A DNA stretch of 64,000 nucleotides from Marinobacter sp. (GTDB lineage Bacteria; Pseudomonadota; Gammaproteobacteria; Pseudomonadales; Oleiphilaceae): NCBI GenBank assembly GCA_018402255.1, contig JAGYIS010000006.1:1-64000 (forward strand), given 5' to 3'. How positions within the stretch are numbered: the stretch's first letter is position 1; each line of letters opens with the position of its first letter. Shown one piece after another: positions 9,162 to 16,293 of this stretch. The notes beneath the pieces were generated by a model. The model searched no databases. It was not told where the DNA came from and worked only from the letters and a program-made list of their open reading frames with translations. The translations under genes were made by a program, and so were the position numbers.

Positions 9162-9309
9162 TCGTTCTCCATTTCGTCGGTAACAGCTTGTCTTCAGCAT
9201 ACAGATTCGATAGTTTTCAAATCTGCCGTGATCGGTCTCATGGACATTGAGAACCGACTACCTGCCGTTTCTCATTCGGCAGATCACTATAATTGAACAT
9301 GGACGTACA

Positions 9310-10992
9310 ATGACAACCATTGGCATAGACCTTGGCACTACAAACAGTGCCTGCGGCGTCTGGACAAAAGATGGCGTAAAGCTCATTCCCAACCGCCTTG
9401 GCGAAATCCTGACACCCTCCGTGATCAGCCTGGACACGAACAACGAACTCATCGTGGGCCGTGGCGCCCGGCAACGCCTGATCAATCACAGCGACCGTAC
9501 CGTTGCCACGTTCAAAAGACTGATGGGCACAGACCACACAATTTTCCTTGGACGCATGGGGTTCAATGCCACCGAACTGTCCTCTCTGGTTCTCCGGTCC
9601 CTGAAAGAGGATGCCGAAGCCTATCTCGAAGAACCTGTCTCCAGTGCGGTAATCAGCGTGCCCGCCTATTTCAACGACAATCAGCGCCAGGCAACACGAC
9701 AAGCCGCTGAACTGGCCGGGCTGAAGGTGGAACGGCTGATCAATGAACCGACTGCCGCAGCCATTACCTATGGCCTGCACCAAAAGCAGGAAGGTATGTT
9801 CCTGATTCTCGATTTCGGCGGTGGCACCTTTGATGTCTCCCTGCTGGAATACTTTGATGGCGTGATGGAAGTGCACGCCAGCGCCGGCGACAACCACCTC
9901 GGCGGCGAAGACTTTGTCGACGCCATGGTTGCCAACGTGCTGGCACAGAATCAACTTTCCAGAGACACAATCTCAGCACTCGACCTGCAGAATCTGTATT
10001 TGCAGATGGAAGGCGCAAAACGGAAATTGGGGCCGGGGCAAACCCTGACACTCACGCTGGGTAAGAAAACCATAGAATTCGAGGTTACCCAGGACTGGTT
10101 TATCGAAGTCTGTACCCCGTTGTTGCTACGGGCCAAAACACCGATCGAGAGAGCCCTGCGTGATGGAAAGATACCGGTATCCAGCATCGACGATGTGATT
10201 CTGGTGGGAGGCTCAACCCGACTGGCACCCTTCCGGTCCATGGTTGGACGAATGTTTGGCAGACTGCCTTCCTGCCACATTGACCCGGATACCGTAGTCG
10301 CCATGGGTGCGGCCATCCAGGCCGGGCTGGTCATGCGGGACGAAGCGCTGGACGACGTCGTACTAACCGATGTCTGCCCATTCACACTGGGTACCGCCGT
10401 CGCCAATGAACCCTACGACCGTGATCTGAGCTATTTGCCGATCATCGAACGTAATTGCGTGGTACCCATCAGTATTGTGCGCAGGCTTTTCACCGCAAGC
10501 CACAACCAGTCGGTCGTGCGTGTGAATGTCTATCAGGGCGAGAGCCCTGACATTAAAAAGAACATCTTCCTCGGCGAGATAAAGGTTCGGGTGCCCAAAG
10601 GCCCCAAAGGCGACGAAGCAGTGGATGTCCGTTACAGTTATGACGCCAACGGCATACTGGAGGTGGATGTCACCGTTGTCTCTACCGGCGTGAACAGGCA
10701 ACTGGTTATCGAGCGAGCACCGGGGGCACTCAGTGACGCTGAAAAACAGGCCGCCAGGGCTAAACTCGCCGGACTCAAATTTCATCCCCGGGAGGGTGAG
10801 GAAAACAGGATGCTTGTGGCAAGGGCTGAGCGCCTCTACGAATCGAGCCTGGACCACCGGCGAGAGTTTGTGGGCAAACTGCTGGACCATTTTCATTACG
10901 CTCTGGACCGGCAGCTTCCCCACGAGATAGAGCAAGCTCAGGCCTACATGAAAGACATGCTGAACCAGATGGAAAGCGAGAACTGGTTCTGA
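9310..10992 (+). CDS. hscC: Hsp70-family chaperone, HscC type
   Basis: A 560-residue Hsp70, shorter than DnaK and equal to HscC in size. The ATPase domain shows [15 protein letters not shown] at the start, [22 protein letters not shown] near 115, [24 protein letters not shown] and [11 protein letters not shown] near 300. A shortened substrate-binding domain follows, and there is no DnaK EEVD tail. ATG 9310 is chosen because it starts exactly at the ATPase fold. The stop overlaps the next gene's ATG by one base. The next gene encodes a J-like protein, matching the HscC/DjlB-DjlC partnership known in E. coli. The specialised client is unknown. Confidence 0.9.
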
Positions 10993-11942
10993 TGTGGCCC
11001 TGGTCTGAGCTCGGGCTGGAGTCAACCGACGATGTCCGTGCCATCAAGAAGGCCTACGCCAGGCTCCTGAAACAGACCAGGCCCGACGAACATCCGGAAG
11101 CATTTCAGCGCCTGCACCAGGCTTATAAAGACGCGTTGGCCAGCGCCCAACCACAATACCACCAGCCGGCTCCCACATTGGCTGAGCCGGCACCACTGGA
11201 ATCGACAAAGGCAGCGCAAGAACCATCGTTGGCCTCAGGTCTGTTCCAACCCCTGAACCACGCCGAGGACAAGCCACCGCCAAACGTCGATCCATTCCCG
11301 GGCCAGCCGGCGGATGAAACGCCTTTTCAGCCTGATAACCAGCCACCCGACAACAAGCCATTTCTTGATAAAACAGATGGCGAGCCCTCATATCTCAAAA
11401 GCGCCGTAATCAAACTTGAACAGGAGCCGCCGCCTCAGATAGACATCGACACTGCCAAAACGGTGCGGGGGCGAAAGATACTTCAGTTTGTCCGGGGTGG
11501 CCGCAGTACCGCTGCACCGCCACCGATTGACTCTACGCCGGCGGCAGGTTATGGATTGCGGATTCTGGCCTTTGCACTGGATATGCTTGTTATTGCGTTG
11601 GTCCTGATCATCGGGCAATTCGTCTGGGCAAAGACCATGGGCAACGCCGGCCTGCCACTGTGGCTGGCGGCGCCTGCTCTTTATCCGTTGACGGCCTTGC
11701 TGTGTGAGGGTTCTCGAATGCAGGCGACGCCCGGAAAGAGACTCCTGGGACTGAAAGTCGTGAACCCCGACCTGATGCCGCTCTCCCAACTCCACAATGC
11801 GGGACGATTCCTGGTGTTCGTTCTGACCACGGCTCTGCTCTGGAAAGGTATCTGGCTGATTAATGCGTTCCTCCACGGCCGCCTGCTGCATGACCGGATC
11901 AGCAGAAGCTATGTGGTGCATGTGCGCCACCTTGGCGGTTAG
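10992..11942 (+). CDS. J-domain-like protein fused to an RDD membrane domain
   Basis: A 316-residue protein in three parts. Residues 1-48 resemble a J domain (DDVRAIKKAYARLLKQTRPDEHPEAF), but the canonical HPD is RPD, as I recall for DjlB/DjlC-like proteins. Residues about 50-150 are a proline/acid-rich linker. Residues about 180-310 form an RDD domain with hydrophobic helices (RILAFALDMLVIALVLIIGQ, LVFVLTTALLWKGIWLINAF). Translationally coupled to hscC, so it probably recruits that Hsp70 to the inner membrane. The missing His is odd because the HPD His is needed to stimulate DnaK. The fusion to RDD is the unusual part. Confidence 0.8.
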   Translation: MWPWSELGLESTDDVRAIKKAYARLLKQTRPDEHPEAFQRLHQAYKDALASAQPQYHQPAPTLAEPAPLESTKAAQEPSLASGLFQPLNHAEDKPPPNVDPFPGQPADETPFQPDNQPPDNKPFLDKTDGEPSYLKSAVIKLEQEPPPQIDIDTAKTVRGRKILQFVRGGRSTAAPPPIDSTPAAGYGLRILAFALDMLVIALVLIIGQFVWAKTMGNAGLPLWLAAPALYPLTALLCEGSRMQATPGKRLLGLKVVNPDLMPLSQLHNAGRFLVFVLTTALLWKGIWLINAFLHGRLLHDRISRSYVVHVRHLGG

Positions 11943-11964
11943 TCGCCCTTGAGCGACAAACAAT

Positions 11965-12732
11965 TTATCGACGCGATTGCTTACGGCCGAGACCAAGATC
12001 GCTCTGAATGTGTTGCCACATCTTCCGGTATTCGACGGCGGCAGAACTGCGAGGTGCCAACAATTCCAACGGCAACCCTTCCTCCCCCATTCGCTCAACC
12101 ACACTGGCATAAGGAACGTCTGCAATCACCGATGTACCAAGCAGTTCTGTCGCCTGGTCCAGTATCTCCCTGTGCAGGTTCTTGCGCCTGTCCACCATCG
12201 AGAAAAACGGTCGCAGTTTCTTGTTGCCCAGCTTCTTGTCTTTCACAAACTCTCTTAACTGGTTCCAGCTGTTCAGTGACAGCCAGGTTGGCACCAGGGG
12301 CACGTAAACCTTGTCTGCCACCTCCAGTACCTGTTCGGTCAACCGGGACAGTGTCGGCGGGCAGTCCAGAATAACCAGACTGGTATCTTCCGAAAGCGGC
12401 GCCAAAAGATCCTTGAGGGCATTATGGCCTTCTTCCTGCTCCAGCTTGATATCAAAATTGCGAAAGCTGCTATGGGCAGGAATAAAGTCGAGTTCGGGGT
12501 AGACGTTTTCGTGGATAAACCGGGCAATGGGAGACGTGCCTTCCAGCAATTTGGATAGCTTACGGCCTTTGATCATTTCCGCGCCGGCCAGGTAGAAGCT
12601 GGCCGCCCCTTGCGGGTCCAGATCCCAGAGCAAAGTGCTGATATTCTCGCGGCTGGCCAGGTAGGCCATATTGACAGCAGCGGCGGTTTTACCCACGCCG
12701 CCTTTGGGACTGTAGAAGGCAATTATTCTCAT
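11965..12732 (-). CDS. ParA/MinD-family ATPase (orphan)
   Basis: A 255-residue deviant-Walker ATPase: FYSPKGGVGKTAAAVNMAYLA at residues 5-25, Walker A' DLDPQGAASFYL near 38 and Walker B LVILDCPPTLS near 115. The start at 12732 places the Walker motif at the usual distance; the longer frame to 12789 has no support. No parB or parS-like gene is beside it, so chromosome partition is not implied. ParA proteins also position membrane or cytosolic cargo. It is convergent with the J-like/RDD gene, 22 bases away. Confidence 0.85.
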   Translation of the reverse strand: MRIIAFYSPKGGVGKTAAAVNMAYLASRENISTLLWDLDPQGAASFYLAGAEMIKGRKLSKLLEGTSPIARFIHENVYPELDFIPAHSSFRNFDIKLEQEEGHNALKDLLAPLSEDTSLVILDCPPTLSRLTEQVLEVADKVYVPLVPTWLSLNSWNQLREFVKDKKLGNKKLRPFFSMVDRRKNLHREILDQATELLGTSVIADVPYASVVERMGEEGLPLELLAPRSSAAVEYRKMWQHIQSDLGLGRKQSRR

Positions 12733-12848
12733 GACGGGGGCTCCTGCCGTGTCTGTTGTCAGCAAACAGTACAGGATAACAGCCACCACAGGAGCATCTA
12801 TGAAGCTTTTATGACAGTTCCCGGAATCAGGATCAACGTCATGCGGGC

Positions 12849-12900
12849 ATGGAAGGCTTTCGTAAAACCACGCTCACGCGGCTTTGCGGAAGCCCTCCAT
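12849..12900 (-). promoter_or_regulatory. Long hairpin spanning the arfA-like stop codon
   Basis: On the minus strand, 12900-12878 pairs with 12871-12849: 23 positions, of which 21 pair (three are G-U). The six-base loop holds the TGA stop. No T tract follows, so it looks more like an RNase III substrate or translation block than an intrinsic terminator. E. coli arfA mRNA is cut by RNase III at a hairpin in the end of its coding region, so the protein is made only from nonstop mRNA when trans-translation fails. The same logic may apply here. Confidence 0.6.
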
Positions 12901-13029
12901 CCGCACAGTTTTGTCCCGGTTGCGCTTATACCTGGTTTTGTCTTCAACCACGCGCATCTGGTACTTTGGCGTTCTCAGTTCCCGTTGCACAGCGCTGTGC
13001 TGTGTGGCTTTCGCCCGTTTCTTCGCCAT
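12874..13029 (-). CDS. arfA: Small basic protein, probable alternative ribosome-rescue factor ArfA
   Basis: A 51-residue, very basic protein (MAKKRAKATQHSAVQREL, then RTPKYQMRVVEDKTRYKR, ending FRKAA) with GAGGAG seven bases before ATG 13029. The order of an aliphatic N-terminal part, an R-x-P-x-(Y/F)-x-x-RV block and a Lys/Arg/Tyr-rich tail resembles ArfA, which brings RF2 to ribosomes stalled on nonstop mRNA. The KGKGSY stretch of E. coli ArfA is replaced by EDKTRYKR. Strong support comes from the hairpin enclosing the stop codon, a known hallmark of arfA genes. It could instead be an unrelated small conserved protein. Confidence 0.6.
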   Translation of the reverse strand: MAKKRAKATQHSAVQRELRTPKYQMRVVEDKTRYKRNRDKTVRMEGFRKAA

Positions 13030-13104
13030 CTCGGTTTCTCCTCGTTTGGCTGGATTCTAACGGCACGTATGATACCACTTTCCTGAATTTCACGAGCGTA
13101 AGCA

Positions 13105-13725
13105 ATGACACTCACTGTGTGGCTCACATTTCTGGTCGCAGCACTTCTGATCAGCGTTTCTCCCGGTGCCGGCGCGGTTAACTCCATGAGCAGCGGTCTG
13201 CGCTATGGCGTTCGCAAATCTCTGCCCACCATTGCCGGCCAGCAGTTCGGTTATGGTGTGCAGATTGTGCTGGTGGGTGCAGGCCTGGGCGCCATAGTGG
13301 CGTCGTCCAATACGGCTCTGATGGTCATCAAGTGGATCGGTGTCGCGTACCTGATCTGGCTGGGCATCCAGAAATGGCGTGAAGAACCGGTGCAGGCATC
13401 CCGCGCAGACTTGTCTGGATTCAGCCCCCGCCAGCAGTTCTGGAATGGCGCGCTGGTGAACCTCACCAACCCGAAAGCCACGATCTTTCTGATCGCCCTG
13501 TTCCCGCAATTCCTGGTGGCCGGTACACCCCATGGTCAGCAGCTGGCTACCATGGGAACAACATTGATTCTGGTGGATATCCTGGTGATGGTGGGTTACG
13601 CCCTGCTGGCCAGCCAGTTGTTCCGGTTTATGACAACGCCCATGCGACAACGGCAAATGAACCGTTTGTTTGGTGGGCTGTTTGTGACGGCGGCGGTGGT
13701 TCTGGCCAGCTTCAAGCGTAGCTAG
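13105..13725 (+). CDS. LysE/RhtB-family amino-acid exporter
   Basis: A 206-residue inner-membrane protein with about six hydrophobic segments. The N-terminal family motif is ISVSPGAGAVNSMSSGLRYG, followed by WIGVAYLIWLGIQKWR and NLTNPKATIFLIALFPQF, both standard in LysE/RhtB. It likely exports an amino acid, such as homoserine, threonine or lysine, or a similar small solute. A single-gene unit closed by a terminator. Confidence 0.92.
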   Translation: MTLTVWLTFLVAALLISVSPGAGAVNSMSSGLRYGVRKSLPTIAGQQFGYGVQIVLVGAGLGAIVASSNTALMVIKWIGVAYLIWLGIQKWREEPVQASRADLSGFSPRQQFWNGALVNLTNPKATIFLIALFPQFLVAGTPHGQQLATMGTTLILVDILVMVGYALLASQLFRFMTTPMRQRQMNRLFGGLFVTAAVVLASFKRS

Positions 13726-13776: not shown

Positions 13777-16293
13777 TCACTCGCGAAGCTCAAGTGTTTC
13801 TACCACAGCCTCCGCGACCTCTCCTTCAGCAAACAACATCGGACGCCACTCAAGACCACTGTATAGCTCCGTCTGATCCGAAAAGTTCTCACTTTCCGGG
13901 TCATGACTCTGGCTATAGCTCAAGAACATTTCAGCTTTTGGACCATCCTCTGTGTACTCCAGCGCCATAACAAAGCTGGAGCCATAATTGATCCTGTAAG
14001 CCAACTCGTCAGTGCCATCGCCATTTTCATCCAGTGCAAACAGAGGGCTACCGCCCACCGGTCTGCCTATAAGGGTATTGGCAAGATCAGACGTGCTTCT
14101 TGAGCTGGCTTTGGTCTCCGCCATATTGAATACACCCTCAAAAGAGTAACCTCCGGAGATGGCAATCGGCTGGTCGCCTTCGGCTTTGAGAACATACTGA
14201 ACACTGCCCAGCGGCGCATCTAATGCAATTCCGGCATTGTTCAATCTGTCTGCCGCTGCAGCCAAAGCCTGGAGCACCGGATCATTGTTGGCATTGGCTG
14301 TATCTATGGGTGCCAGACCAGAGGGCGTGCTGACAGGCGCTTCAGGATCAAACGCCGTGGAGAACAACTCATCGGAGAGCTCCCGGTGACGAGACACCCG
14401 GAACGCCGCCAGAAATTCGCGCATCAGGTGAGCGCCTTTACTGTCGGTATTGTAGCGACCATCCCAGTTGATCAGCGTTTGACATGCCGCACCCAGGTTA
14501 AAAGATTCGCCTTCATATTCCACGGTAGGATACGTCGTACAACGACTGGTCAATTGATTCTTCCACTCTCCGCCAAATAGTGAGCCGTTGTGGGTCATCA
14601 CGGTTTTGAGCTCTTCCAGAGAAAAATGGCCATCAGCGCCAGCCAACCCGGAACTGCTGTTGTCAGAAATCAACTGGGCGTTGTAACGGGTACGAGTGCT
14701 GCGAATGGTGCCCTCAGGGCCATACATAATACTGAAACCTTCAAGCGGCTCGTCCAGATTGGAAAGCCAATGGCTACTGTTGGCGTTGAACACGTAATCA
14801 CGGCGGGTCTGTTGGGGCGCTTGGGCGAATGGCACAACACCGGGTGATCTGGTGGTGCCAGTATCAACCCACTCGTATTTGGCGTCATCACCCGGGAACA
14901 AGACGCTTCCGGCGCCGTCCTGCCAGATCGGTGCCAGCAAGGGCAACTGCGAAGCCTGCCGCCAGTACTGCTCTGCCATCAGACCCAAGTTAGGAACTTG
15001 TGTGCCGTCGATGTAGTTGGCAGTGCCCTCTTTATCAATCATCAGGGTATTAACCCAGGGAATGCCCTGATGCTCTTCGAAGGCGCTGAAAAAGGCCTCT
15101 CGACTGTCCGCTTTGCCCATCGCAAGCCACTGGTCCAGCATGCGGGTATTACCGGCATTGGCATCCCGGAACGCTACAGCTGTGTCGCTATTCCAACCCA
15201 GCGCTGGTGACAGGGATGCAAGATTAACAACCGGCCCATGGTGACTGAAGTACACCGGCTGGCTGTAATCGGCAAGACTACCATCAGGCTGTTTGACCTG
15301 GATCTGCACCGTTTTAGTCGTCATGTCGCGGTATTCTGGGGACTGACCATTTGAAGAATACTTGTAACGGGTCGGGTCATTAGGGTTTAACTCAAGCTGG
15401 TATAAGGTAAAGCGCTTGGACTGCGATACCGTGTGTGTCCACCCAAGATTCTGGTTAAACCCGACCACCACCGCTGGCACACCGGTCATCGTCACGCCGT
15501 TGATATCCAGCTCGCCGGGAATGGTCAGATGGTTCTGGTAAAATCGCAGTTCGCCGTCCCAGGGAAAGTGTGGGTTTCCTAGCAGCAAGCTTTTGGTACC
15601 TTCCTCGACCTTGTCCTCGCCCAGTGCCCAGCCATTGCTGCCGATGCCCTCTGAGGTGAACACCCTGGCAGCATCCAGTTCCAGGTCGAAAGCTGCCATA
15701 GTGGCCGTTGGTGGCCGTGCCGCGGCAATGGCGCTGATAAAGTTACGCGCGCTGGCCAGGCCTGCCAGGTCAAGATGGTAGGCCAGTAAGTCCTCAGCGG
15801 TAATGGGTTCGACCCATTCGGCGCCCCGGCAAGGCGACGGGTAATCCATCGGGCCGGCTCGTTCAGCCAGTGAGCGGTTGAATCCTGCCGCGTAGCCTTT
15901 TAAAAGCTCACTCGACGTTTCCGAAAGTTCACTGAACAATTCAGAGGCTTGTGCCGGATAGTCCAGAGCTTTGTAGCCAACGTCCGTGAGGATGTTCTTG
16001 CTCCTCTCACCGGGGCCAAAGTACCGGGACTTCTGAGACTTCAGTTTCACCAACTGCTCGGAAAGTGTGCATAGATTATTTCTGGCGTGATCGTATCCGG
16101 CACCGTAACCTAATGATCCATAATCATTGGCGATGATGTGCGGTACTCCGAATTCGGTGTAACGTATATCAACCTGATAGACGGGGTTTCGCTCCGATTC
16201 GGTTGACGAACTTGAGCCACCAGATCCTCCGTTACAGCCCGACAGAAGTAACGGGAAAATCAGCGAAATTGTTGTTAACGAGCGAATGTTCAT
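13777..16293 (-). CDS. Penicillin acylase/AHL acylase-family lipoprotein (Ntn hydrolase)
   Basis: An 838-residue protein with a lipobox (LLLSGC, Cys20) followed by a Gly/Ser linker, so a lipid-anchored periplasmic or outer-membrane enzyme. The acylase fold starts at about 40 (IRYTEFGVPHIIANDYGSLGYG). The self-cleavage site is Gly218-Ser219 in EGIGSNGWALG; Ser219 would become the N-terminal nucleophile of the beta chain. Later landmarks are NPHFPWDG, GVPAVVVGFNQNLGWTHT and a C-terminal ISGGYSFEGVFNMAE. Relatives cleave beta-lactams, aculeacin or acyl-homoserine lactones (PvdQ, QuiP). Substrate is not decidable here. Divergent from a membrane AraC regulator. Confidence 0.9.
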   Translation of the reverse strand: MNIRSLTTISLIFPLLLSGCNGGSGGSSSSTESERNPVYQVDIRYTEFGVPHIIANDYGSLGYGAGYDHARNNLCTLSEQLVKLKSQKSRYFGPGERSKNILTDVGYKALDYPAQASELFSELSETSSELLKGYAAGFNRSLAERAGPMDYPSPCRGAEWVEPITAEDLLAYHLDLAGLASARNFISAIAAARPPTATMAAFDLELDAARVFTSEGIGSNGWALGEDKVEEGTKSLLLGNPHFPWDGELRFYQNHLTIPGELDINGVTMTGVPAVVVGFNQNLGWTHTVSQSKRFTLYQLELNPNDPTRYKYSSNGQSPEYRDMTTKTVQIQVKQPDGSLADYSQPVYFSHHGPVVNLASLSPALGWNSDTAVAFRDANAGNTRMLDQWLAMGKADSREAFFSAFEEHQGIPWVNTLMIDKEGTANYIDGTQVPNLGLMAEQYWRQASQLPLLAPIWQDGAGSVLFPGDDAKYEWVDTGTTRSPGVVPFAQAPQQTRRDYVFNANSSHWLSNLDEPLEGFSIMYGPEGTIRSTRTRYNAQLISDNSSSGLAGADGHFSLEELKTVMTHNGSLFGGEWKNQLTSRCTTYPTVEYEGESFNLGAACQTLINWDGRYNTDSKGAHLMREFLAAFRVSRHRELSDELFSTAFDPEAPVSTPSGLAPIDTANANNDPVLQALAAAADRLNNAGIALDAPLGSVQYVLKAEGDQPIAISGGYSFEGVFNMAETKASSRSTSDLANTLIGRPVGGSPLFALDENGDGTDELAYRINYGSSFVMALEYTEDGPKAEMFLSYSQSHDPESENFSDQTELYSGLEWRPMLFAEGEVAEAVVETLELRE

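Follow-up and report, generated by a model that had tools for sequence, protein, structure and literature searches.

The stem-loop of the E. coli arfA gene is described as both an RNase III site and a terminator, and the arfA message as one without a stop codon whose product is tagged by tmRNA, while the full-length protein is unstable; these statements follow the available parts of two papers (PMC10107115, PMC3989581). Leu19, Leu24 and Phe25 of E. coli ArfA contact RF2, according to the accessible part of another paper (PMC5378476). Across more than 15,000 surveyed genomes, ArfA is presented, in the portion available, as the least conserved rescue factor with a narrow distribution (PMC11633108). 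For ArfT, another small rescue factor, a wider family in bacteria, archaea and eukaryotes was claimed in the available part of one paper (PMC6514570). In phages, a PF03889 (ArfA) domain is reported for gp30 of pelagiphage HTVC027P (PMC12753301), and a paper on phage RXM bears on a phage-encoded alternative ribosome-rescue factor (PMC8953757), both as far as the available text goes.

A literature search, with most subscription papers outside its reach, found no paper on ribosome rescue in Marinobacter. A paper on proteobacterial arfA genes reportedly exists. Here we describe a 51-codon gene in the window, the whole 64,000-nt stretch of Marinobacter sp. DNA analysed. It is likely that this gene encodes an ArfA-like backup rescue factor without the KGKGSY motif, which would be produced from a nonstop mRNA after RNase III cleavage, would rescue ribosomes, and would be kept off under tmRNA.

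The 51-codon gene and the hairpin at its stop codon

The product is a 51-residue basic protein, MAKKRAKATQHSAVQRELRTPKYQMRVVEDKTRYKRNRDKTVRMEGFRKAA, translated from an ORF on the minus strand (Table 1). The sequence-only reading had left the strand unstated; its span, 12849-13029, corresponds exactly to the gene and the hairpin together. The pN/pS ratio for codons 2-42 is 0.15 in comparison with 54 homologues, and the coding part is under purifying selection. In all 57 upstream sequences of homologues, GGAG, AGGA or GAGG is present at the place of the ribosome-binding site. The pattern TGnTAnnnT is found at the place of the extended -10 element in 54 of the 57, and a near-consensus -10 hexamer in 40. 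A sigma-70 scan of the window region did not report the site at 13069-13077. The 51-codon gene looks like its own transcription unit because of the ribosome-binding site and the conserved extended -10 pattern.

Table 1. Coordinates of the 51-codon gene, its signals and its neighbours in the window.
Feature	Position	Strand	Basis or remark
51-codon ArfA-like gene	12874..13029	minus	Stop TGA at 12874-12876; ORF, homologues, pN/pS
Conserved core, residues 8-42, ATQHSAVQRELRTPKYQMRVVEDKTRYKRNRDKTV	12904..13008	minus	Aligns with phage DUF7230-type proteins (profile-profile)
Ribosome-binding site GAGGAG	13038..13043	minus	Read directly
Extended -10 promoter-like element TGGTATCAT	13069..13077	minus	About 40 nt upstream of ATG
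24-position hairpin	12849..12900	minus	5' arm, codons 44-51; stop UGA in loop; 3' arm non-coding; proposed RNase III substrate
Apical loop UGAG, holding the stop codon	12873..12876	minus	Fold
Divergent neighbour, LysE/RhtB-like exporter	13105..13725	plus	Putative, by sequence
Downstream ParA/MinD-like ATPase	11965..12732	minus	Putative, by GGVGKT motif

The stop codon had been placed in the loop of a 23-bp hairpin in which 21 of 23 positions pair. This count is right, and the full helix extends it by one position: 12877-12900 opposes 12849-12872, with 22 of the 24 opposed positions paired and two C.A mismatches. The RNA of 12840-12910 (71 nt, minus strand) has a folding energy of -40.9 kcal/mol, where shuffles average -21.7 (z -6.15), and none of 200 shuffles is equally stable. 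An Rfam scan gave no family at the gathering score and two matches far under it.

The hairpin is conserved in the homologues. The 86 loci were reduced to 57 distinct gene-plus-tail sequences, and the stop codon is enclosed by a predicted helix in 56 of them, with all three stop bases unpaired in 35 sequences and one stop base paired in 21. The sole exception, L070, whose match diverges at residue 44 close to a contig end, was left out of all tail counts. A strong hairpin surrounds the stop codon in all 21 gene-bearing genomes among the 58 searched. The stop-codon hairpin is not a chance feature, as all 56 distinct homologous tails show z < -3 against shuffles (mean -6.33). KAA is the C-terminal end of 55 of the 56 full-length products.

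Covariation was analysed in the alignment A3, which comprises 55 distinct tails (one of the 56 was dropped, being identical to another over the 69 aligned bases). In the 24-pair helix, 91.5% of cells are paired, and 12 of the 24 pairs are altered on both sides, in 104 such cells. The covariation score is 0.316 versus 0.186 in shuffled alignments and at most 0.103 when the partner is slid. None of 500 shuffles equals the alignment in any one of five measures, all of which collapse when the partner is slid by 1-3 columns. RNAalifold without guidance predicted 21 pairs, every one within the 24-pair helix. In L108, much of the lower stem is re-paired with different letters. One arm is coding and the other is non-coding; protein constraint alone therefore does not explain the covariation. 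Selection acts on the hairpin. The sequence-only reading had named the lack of a conserved hairpin in relatives as an observation that would speak against it; in the relatives the hairpin is both conserved and covarying.

Two details of the stem were observed. A four-U run in the 3' arm (A3 columns 44-47, within 12849-12872 on the minus strand) is largely kept, even as G.U pairs, which hints at an additional role, perhaps in weak termination. A mid-stem position (A3 columns 24 and 48) is unpaired in 48 of the 55 tails, mostly as C opposite A. This conserved imperfection may position RNase III.

The gene is patchily distributed. A protein match was found in 21 of 58 searched genomes, the window's own among them, and within the genus Marinobacter 65 of 124 genomes carry the gene at E <= 7.4e-25. 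The other 59, some of which are incomplete genomes, have no strong match; six of the 124 have weak matches above 0.1. Beyond the genus, in the samples searched, the gene is found in one other genus of the family and in two genera of another family of the order. Among the 45 named loci, 44 are from Marinobacter and one is from a MAG called Halomonas. In a class-wide sample of 369 genomes, nothing matched beyond the window's own genome and two weak hits, L087 and L088, which were taken as chance. A search of plasmids for homologues found none.

The divergent neighbour, which we take to be a LysE/RhtB-like exporter, lies within the flanks of 17 of the 45 named loci, some of these flanks being cut by contig ends. 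It is no obligatory partner. The downstream gene, presumably for a ParA/MinD-like ATPase by its GGVGKT motif, also lies within the flanks of 17 of the 45, and 11 of 15 searched genomes that do not have the 51-codon gene do have this one. In L110, both neighbours are kept with about 245 bp between them, and tblastn found no trace of the 51-codon gene there. Because the neighbours occur without it and because of the arrangement in L110, the 51-codon gene is an independent, patchily kept unit. Elsewhere in the window, translations indicate an Hsp70-like gene and, immediately after it, a gene whose product begins with a J-domain-like region and is hydrophobic in its C-terminal half (9247-11942), and a long minus-strand ORF resembling a secreted penicillin-acylase-type lipoprotein (13777-16293).

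Phage relatives and the relation to ArfA

The ArfA HMM search proposed by the sequence-only reading was run, and neither the protein nor the family members scanned had an ArfA HMM match. Pfam and NCBIfam scans of the window protein gave 0 families each, and its score is below the PF03889 gathering cut-off (25.5 bits). ArfA is absent among the Pfam matches of 11 family members at E <= 10, and the window's genome has no PF03889 match at E <= 1. None of 37 Marinobacter genomes searched has a PF03889 match over the cut-off. Sub-cut-off PF03889 matches in relatives were rejected as noise, as 6 of 14 control genomes also matched, only one over the cut-off. In NCBIfam, the 11 family members gave one weak unrelated match and ten phage proteins gave none. 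A profile search of PDB chain sequences returned no ArfA; its two matches, with E 0.42 and 0.73, were taken as chance.

KGKGS[YF] is absent from all aligned members and from the 104 combined Marinobacter-type and phage proteins; DK[TS].Y.R stands here instead. The motif EDKTRYKR had been proposed to replace KGKGSY, and the basic DKTRYKR does occupy the place of KGKGSY of ArfA. In the register of the profile alignment, the RF2-contacting Leu19, Leu24 and Phe25 align with Glu17, Lys22 and Tyr23, and the aromatic alone is kept. The contact with a release factor would therefore have to differ.

The protein also has relatives in phages. All 11 family members match phrog_2701 of PHROGs at E <= 1 (best 1.9e-5). 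DUF7230 (PF23876) of Pfam is weakly matched by 3 of the 11; the best match, the L107 protein (E 0.0014, 19.2 bits), is below the gathering cut-off of 27 bits. Single-member searches of phages gave weak matches, mostly to Acinetobacter phages. A 41-residue protein of Acinetobacter phages is present in 71 phage records at E <= 0.1, of which 68 are named Acinetobacter. A scan of viral contigs with the Marinobacter-type alignment alone found no matches; once phage sequences had been added to the alignment, at least 162 loci were confirmed, and 80 were kept. These 80 and ten phage loci correspond to 59 distinct proteins, many of them of the type MKPRNPIAKDLRTPKYRMRVVESKVQYIRQPKHRK. Of ten phage representatives scanned, eight match DUF7230 at E <= 1, five above its cut-off.

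The hhalign comparison of 46 distinct Marinobacter-type proteins with the phage relatives (one of the 59 phage proteins was dropped) gave a probability of 98.6 and an E-value of 8e-16, and none of 300 column permutations scored as high. Judged by these profiles, the Marinobacter-type and the phage DUF7230-type proteins are homologous. The phage DUF7230/phrog_2701 proteins share a near-identical core with the window family (AKDLRTPKYRMRVVESK.Y.R). Unlike the Marinobacter type, the phage genes mostly lack a strong stop-codon hairpin: among the phage tails folded (55 of the 59 distinct proteins, with 4 dropped), 7 of 55 show z < -3 (mean -0.57), and 7 of 55 have at least 15 pairs enclosing the stop codon.

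In four of eight Acinetobacter phage loci (L165, L166, L171 and L173), a short hairpin GGACC..GGTCC abuts or overlaps the DUF7230-type stop codon. A terminator at these stops could in principle yield a nonstop message. The hairpin is after the stop codon in L168 and L170, and there is none in L169 and L172. The idea that the nonstop trick is common to the phage genes was dropped, as 4 of the 8 Acinetobacter phage loci have the hairpin after the stop codon or none.

For the direct comparison with ArfA, 27 true ArfA proteins were collected from E. coli K-12 and from PF03889 searches of relatives, the class and another order; they represent 27 of 32 ArfA loci, 5 being missed by the KGKGS filter. 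Residues 9-43 of the 51-residue protein are aligned with ArfA. The Marinobacter-type profile aligns with ArfA in register and weakly, with a probability of 10.4 and a score of 18.6 versus 8.6 for the reversed profile, and 2 of 600 permutations score as high. The combined profile of Marinobacter and phage proteins without KGKGSY gave a probability of 25.8, also weak, which none of 300 permutations reached.

Several phage proteins are intermediate between the two types. In Pseudoalteromonas phage J2-1, one annotated protein joins an ArfA-type N-terminus to a DKTKYRRKKKHK tail and scores over both curated cut-offs (PF03889, 41.3 versus 25.5; PF23876, 28.6 versus 27). Proteins of phages CRP-212, Cr30, Bambus, XM05 and RXM have KG[KR]GS[YF] together with an N-terminus of the N..A..L type; all pass PF03889, and those of CRP-212 and Cr30 match PF23876 below its cut-off. 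The J2-1, RXM and Bambus proteins are annotated in their own records as ArfA or alternative ribosome-rescue factor, and the CRP-212 and Cr30 ORFs are unannotated, overlapping annotated genes in another frame. Such an overlap in a different frame is seen for the ArfA/DUF7230-like ORFs of Roseobacter phages CRP-212 and CRP-13 (L257, L258) and Caulobacter phage Cr30 (L262), which are either overlapping genes or frameshift products. The related ORF of CRP-13 matched no Pfam family.

Since the intermediate phage proteins mix both kinds of half, it appears that a single small protein has either KGKGSY or DKT.Y as its tail. The evidence for common descent of the ArfA and DUF7230 types is good but not conclusive. 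The term "ArfA-type" of the sequence-only reading is thus supported: homology is backed through the phage intermediates and the hairpin lies at an arfA-like position. A lack of ArfA homology by HMM, which that reading had named as speaking against it, is borne out by half, for the direct HMM search; membership of the ArfA family as Pfam defines it is not supported. The protein is ArfA-like by anatomy and is not filed as ArfA, because it scores below the Pfam threshold and has no KGKGSY motif. That it is of the ArfA type and would work like ArfA is well supported by these comparisons.

Proposed function and rival explanations

The window's genome has a tmRNA, with the tag ANDENYALAA, and therefore the control circuit is available. 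The protein would be a backup factor for ribosomes stalled on mRNAs without a stop codon. RNase III would cut the conserved hairpin, so that the stop codon would be lost and the message would end near codons 44-50, beyond the conserved core. When trans-translation works, tmRNA would tag the nascent peptide, which would be degraded. With trans-translation saturated or absent, the peptide, truncated but with core residues 1 to about 44 intact, would be released and would rescue ribosomes: its basic DKTRYKR..RDK tail would enter the empty mRNA channel, and a release factor would be recruited. An uncut message would be read to the stop codon, giving a full-length product whose -KAA end resembles the -ALAA of the tmRNA tag. 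This product may be short-lived. That KAA is a degron is a guess, and KAA may partly reflect the pairing of the hairpin. In the comparison of folded tails with shuffles, it is the cellular genes that have the strong hairpin, and most phage genes lack it, which is what tmRNA control would predict.

Other explanations have to be weighed. The inverted repeat would have no role in RNA if it were a REP-like DNA element, mobile or repeated, inserted where the gene ends. Strong folding of the antisense strand, which is observed, would fit such an element, although any inverted repeat shows it. Even with 3 mismatches allowed, the 64 kb window contains the 5' arm only once, the stop codon is enclosed in 56 of 57 sequences, and pairs covary over deep divergence, as in L108; an element of this kind is extremely improbable. 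An ordinary intrinsic terminator overlapping the gene end by chance is somewhat less improbable, yet still very unlikely. The four-U run of A3 comes after a short inner stem rich in G+C and is mostly retained despite G.U pairs, and the stem-loop of E. coli arfA is, in the available text, itself both a terminator and an RNase III site (PMC10107115). Nevertheless, the U run is only four long and lies inside a long stem, and a terminator scan of 11900-13300 found none. Among the 14 outer pairs, which a terminator would not need, 8 are altered on both sides. Termination at the U run would also leave the stop codon on the message.

The rival with the largest share, still an unlikely one, accepts the RNase III hairpin and disputes the function. 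The protein, and all of DUF7230 with it, would be a small basic ribosome- or RNA-binding protein with another function, and the hairpin would merely autoregulate or destabilise the mRNA. Pfam describes DUF7230 as of unknown function, and the literature search, again with most subscription papers outside its reach, found no paper naming the family; direct ArfA HMM matches are absent, and the RF2 patch is mostly not conserved. Against this, the cut-offs of ArfA and of DUF7230 are both exceeded by one annotated phage protein, and a further five proteins mix the halves; the hairpin, whose loop holds the stop codon, is about as far from the conserved tyrosine as in arfA. These observations favour the ArfA-like backup rescue factor.

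A wider model is put forward tentatively, as it is somewhat more doubtful than not. ArfA would be one branch of a larger superfamily of rescue factors. Another branch without KGKGSY (DUF7230/phrog_2701) would be found in many aquatic and T4-like phages, where it would be expressed freely, and in Marinobacter-type bacteria, where it would be under tmRNA control through the RNase III hairpin with the stop codon in its loop and would end in the ssrA-like KAA. With its RF2-specific hydrophobic patch replaced, this branch may differ from ArfA in how it recruits release factors, for example by using RF1 as well as RF2. The link between DUF7230 and ArfA suggests that many phages carry rescue factors without KGKGSY. 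The present ArfA model would miss this branch, as 65 of the 124 Marinobacter genomes carry the gene, PF03889 is over its cut-off in 0 of 37, and the phage relatives amount to at least 162 loci. If confirmed, the proposal would give the phage domain DUF7230, so far without a known function, a role and would indicate that KGKGSY is dispensable. A stop codon inside a long covarying hairpin would then be an easily recognised signature for finding further rescue factors regulated through nonstop mRNA.

Comparison with known rescue systems

A distribution complementary to that of another rescue factor was considered. PF00472 has three matches in 116 of the 124 genomes of the genus, with or without the 51-codon gene, and the third may be ArfB; no complementarity is claimed from this. 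ArfT of Francisella (about 40 aa, dependent on RF1 or RF2) is a small basic protein of the same size class as the window protein. Unlike the window gene, arfT has no terminator or RNase III site ahead of its stop codon, according to the available part of the paper (PMC6299226); the window family is set apart from ArfT by this description and may overlap with its claimed wider family. BrfA of Bacillus is made from nonstop mRNA and repressed by trans-translation, as proposed here. It differs in using a terminator in the coding region and not RNase III, and little similarity to ArfA or ArfT is reported, all in the available text (PMC8874680); here, too, the window protein is set apart by description only.

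ArfA (YhdL in E. coli), an RF2-dependent factor made from nonstop mRNA, is the closest system. It is a small basic protein as here, it occurs in a genome setting with tmRNA like that of the window's genome, and in the weak profile alignment an N-terminal pattern N/S-x-I/V...L..P.F/Y..RV and a Tyr-x-Arg tail of the two proteins fall in register. Unlike ArfA, the window protein has no KGKGSY, is three residues shorter in that region, is below PF03889 detection, and has the RF2 hydrophobic patch largely replaced. It also lacks the hydrophobic C-terminal tail and ends in KAA. An ArfA from the same order (L022) ends in ...SLLLAA, and LAA is also how the tmRNA tag ends; this suggests that degron-like ends encoded in the gene itself may be found in other ArfA genes too.

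A hairpin in the 3' coding region that is able to yield nonstop mRNA is a feature of ArfA and is present in the Marinobacter-type genes. The best arfA hairpin, taken as the single hairpin of greatest stability close to the 3' coding end and chosen without a shuffle control, has 16-30 pairs in all 27 parsed genes, and in a fixed window 18 of the 27 ArfA tails reach z < -3. By the same method, the median distance from the conserved aromatic (Tyr/Phe) to the hairpin arm is 9.7 codons in ArfA (-4.0 to 13.3) and 8.0 in the Marinobacter type (5.7 to 10.7), and that to the loop is 19.3 (7.0 to 20.0) and 17.7 (17.3 to 20.3), respectively. The position of the stop codon differs: in arfA it lies after the hairpin (18 of 27) or in the 3' arm (9 of 27) and in the loop in none of the 27, whereas in the window gene it lies in the hairpin loop.
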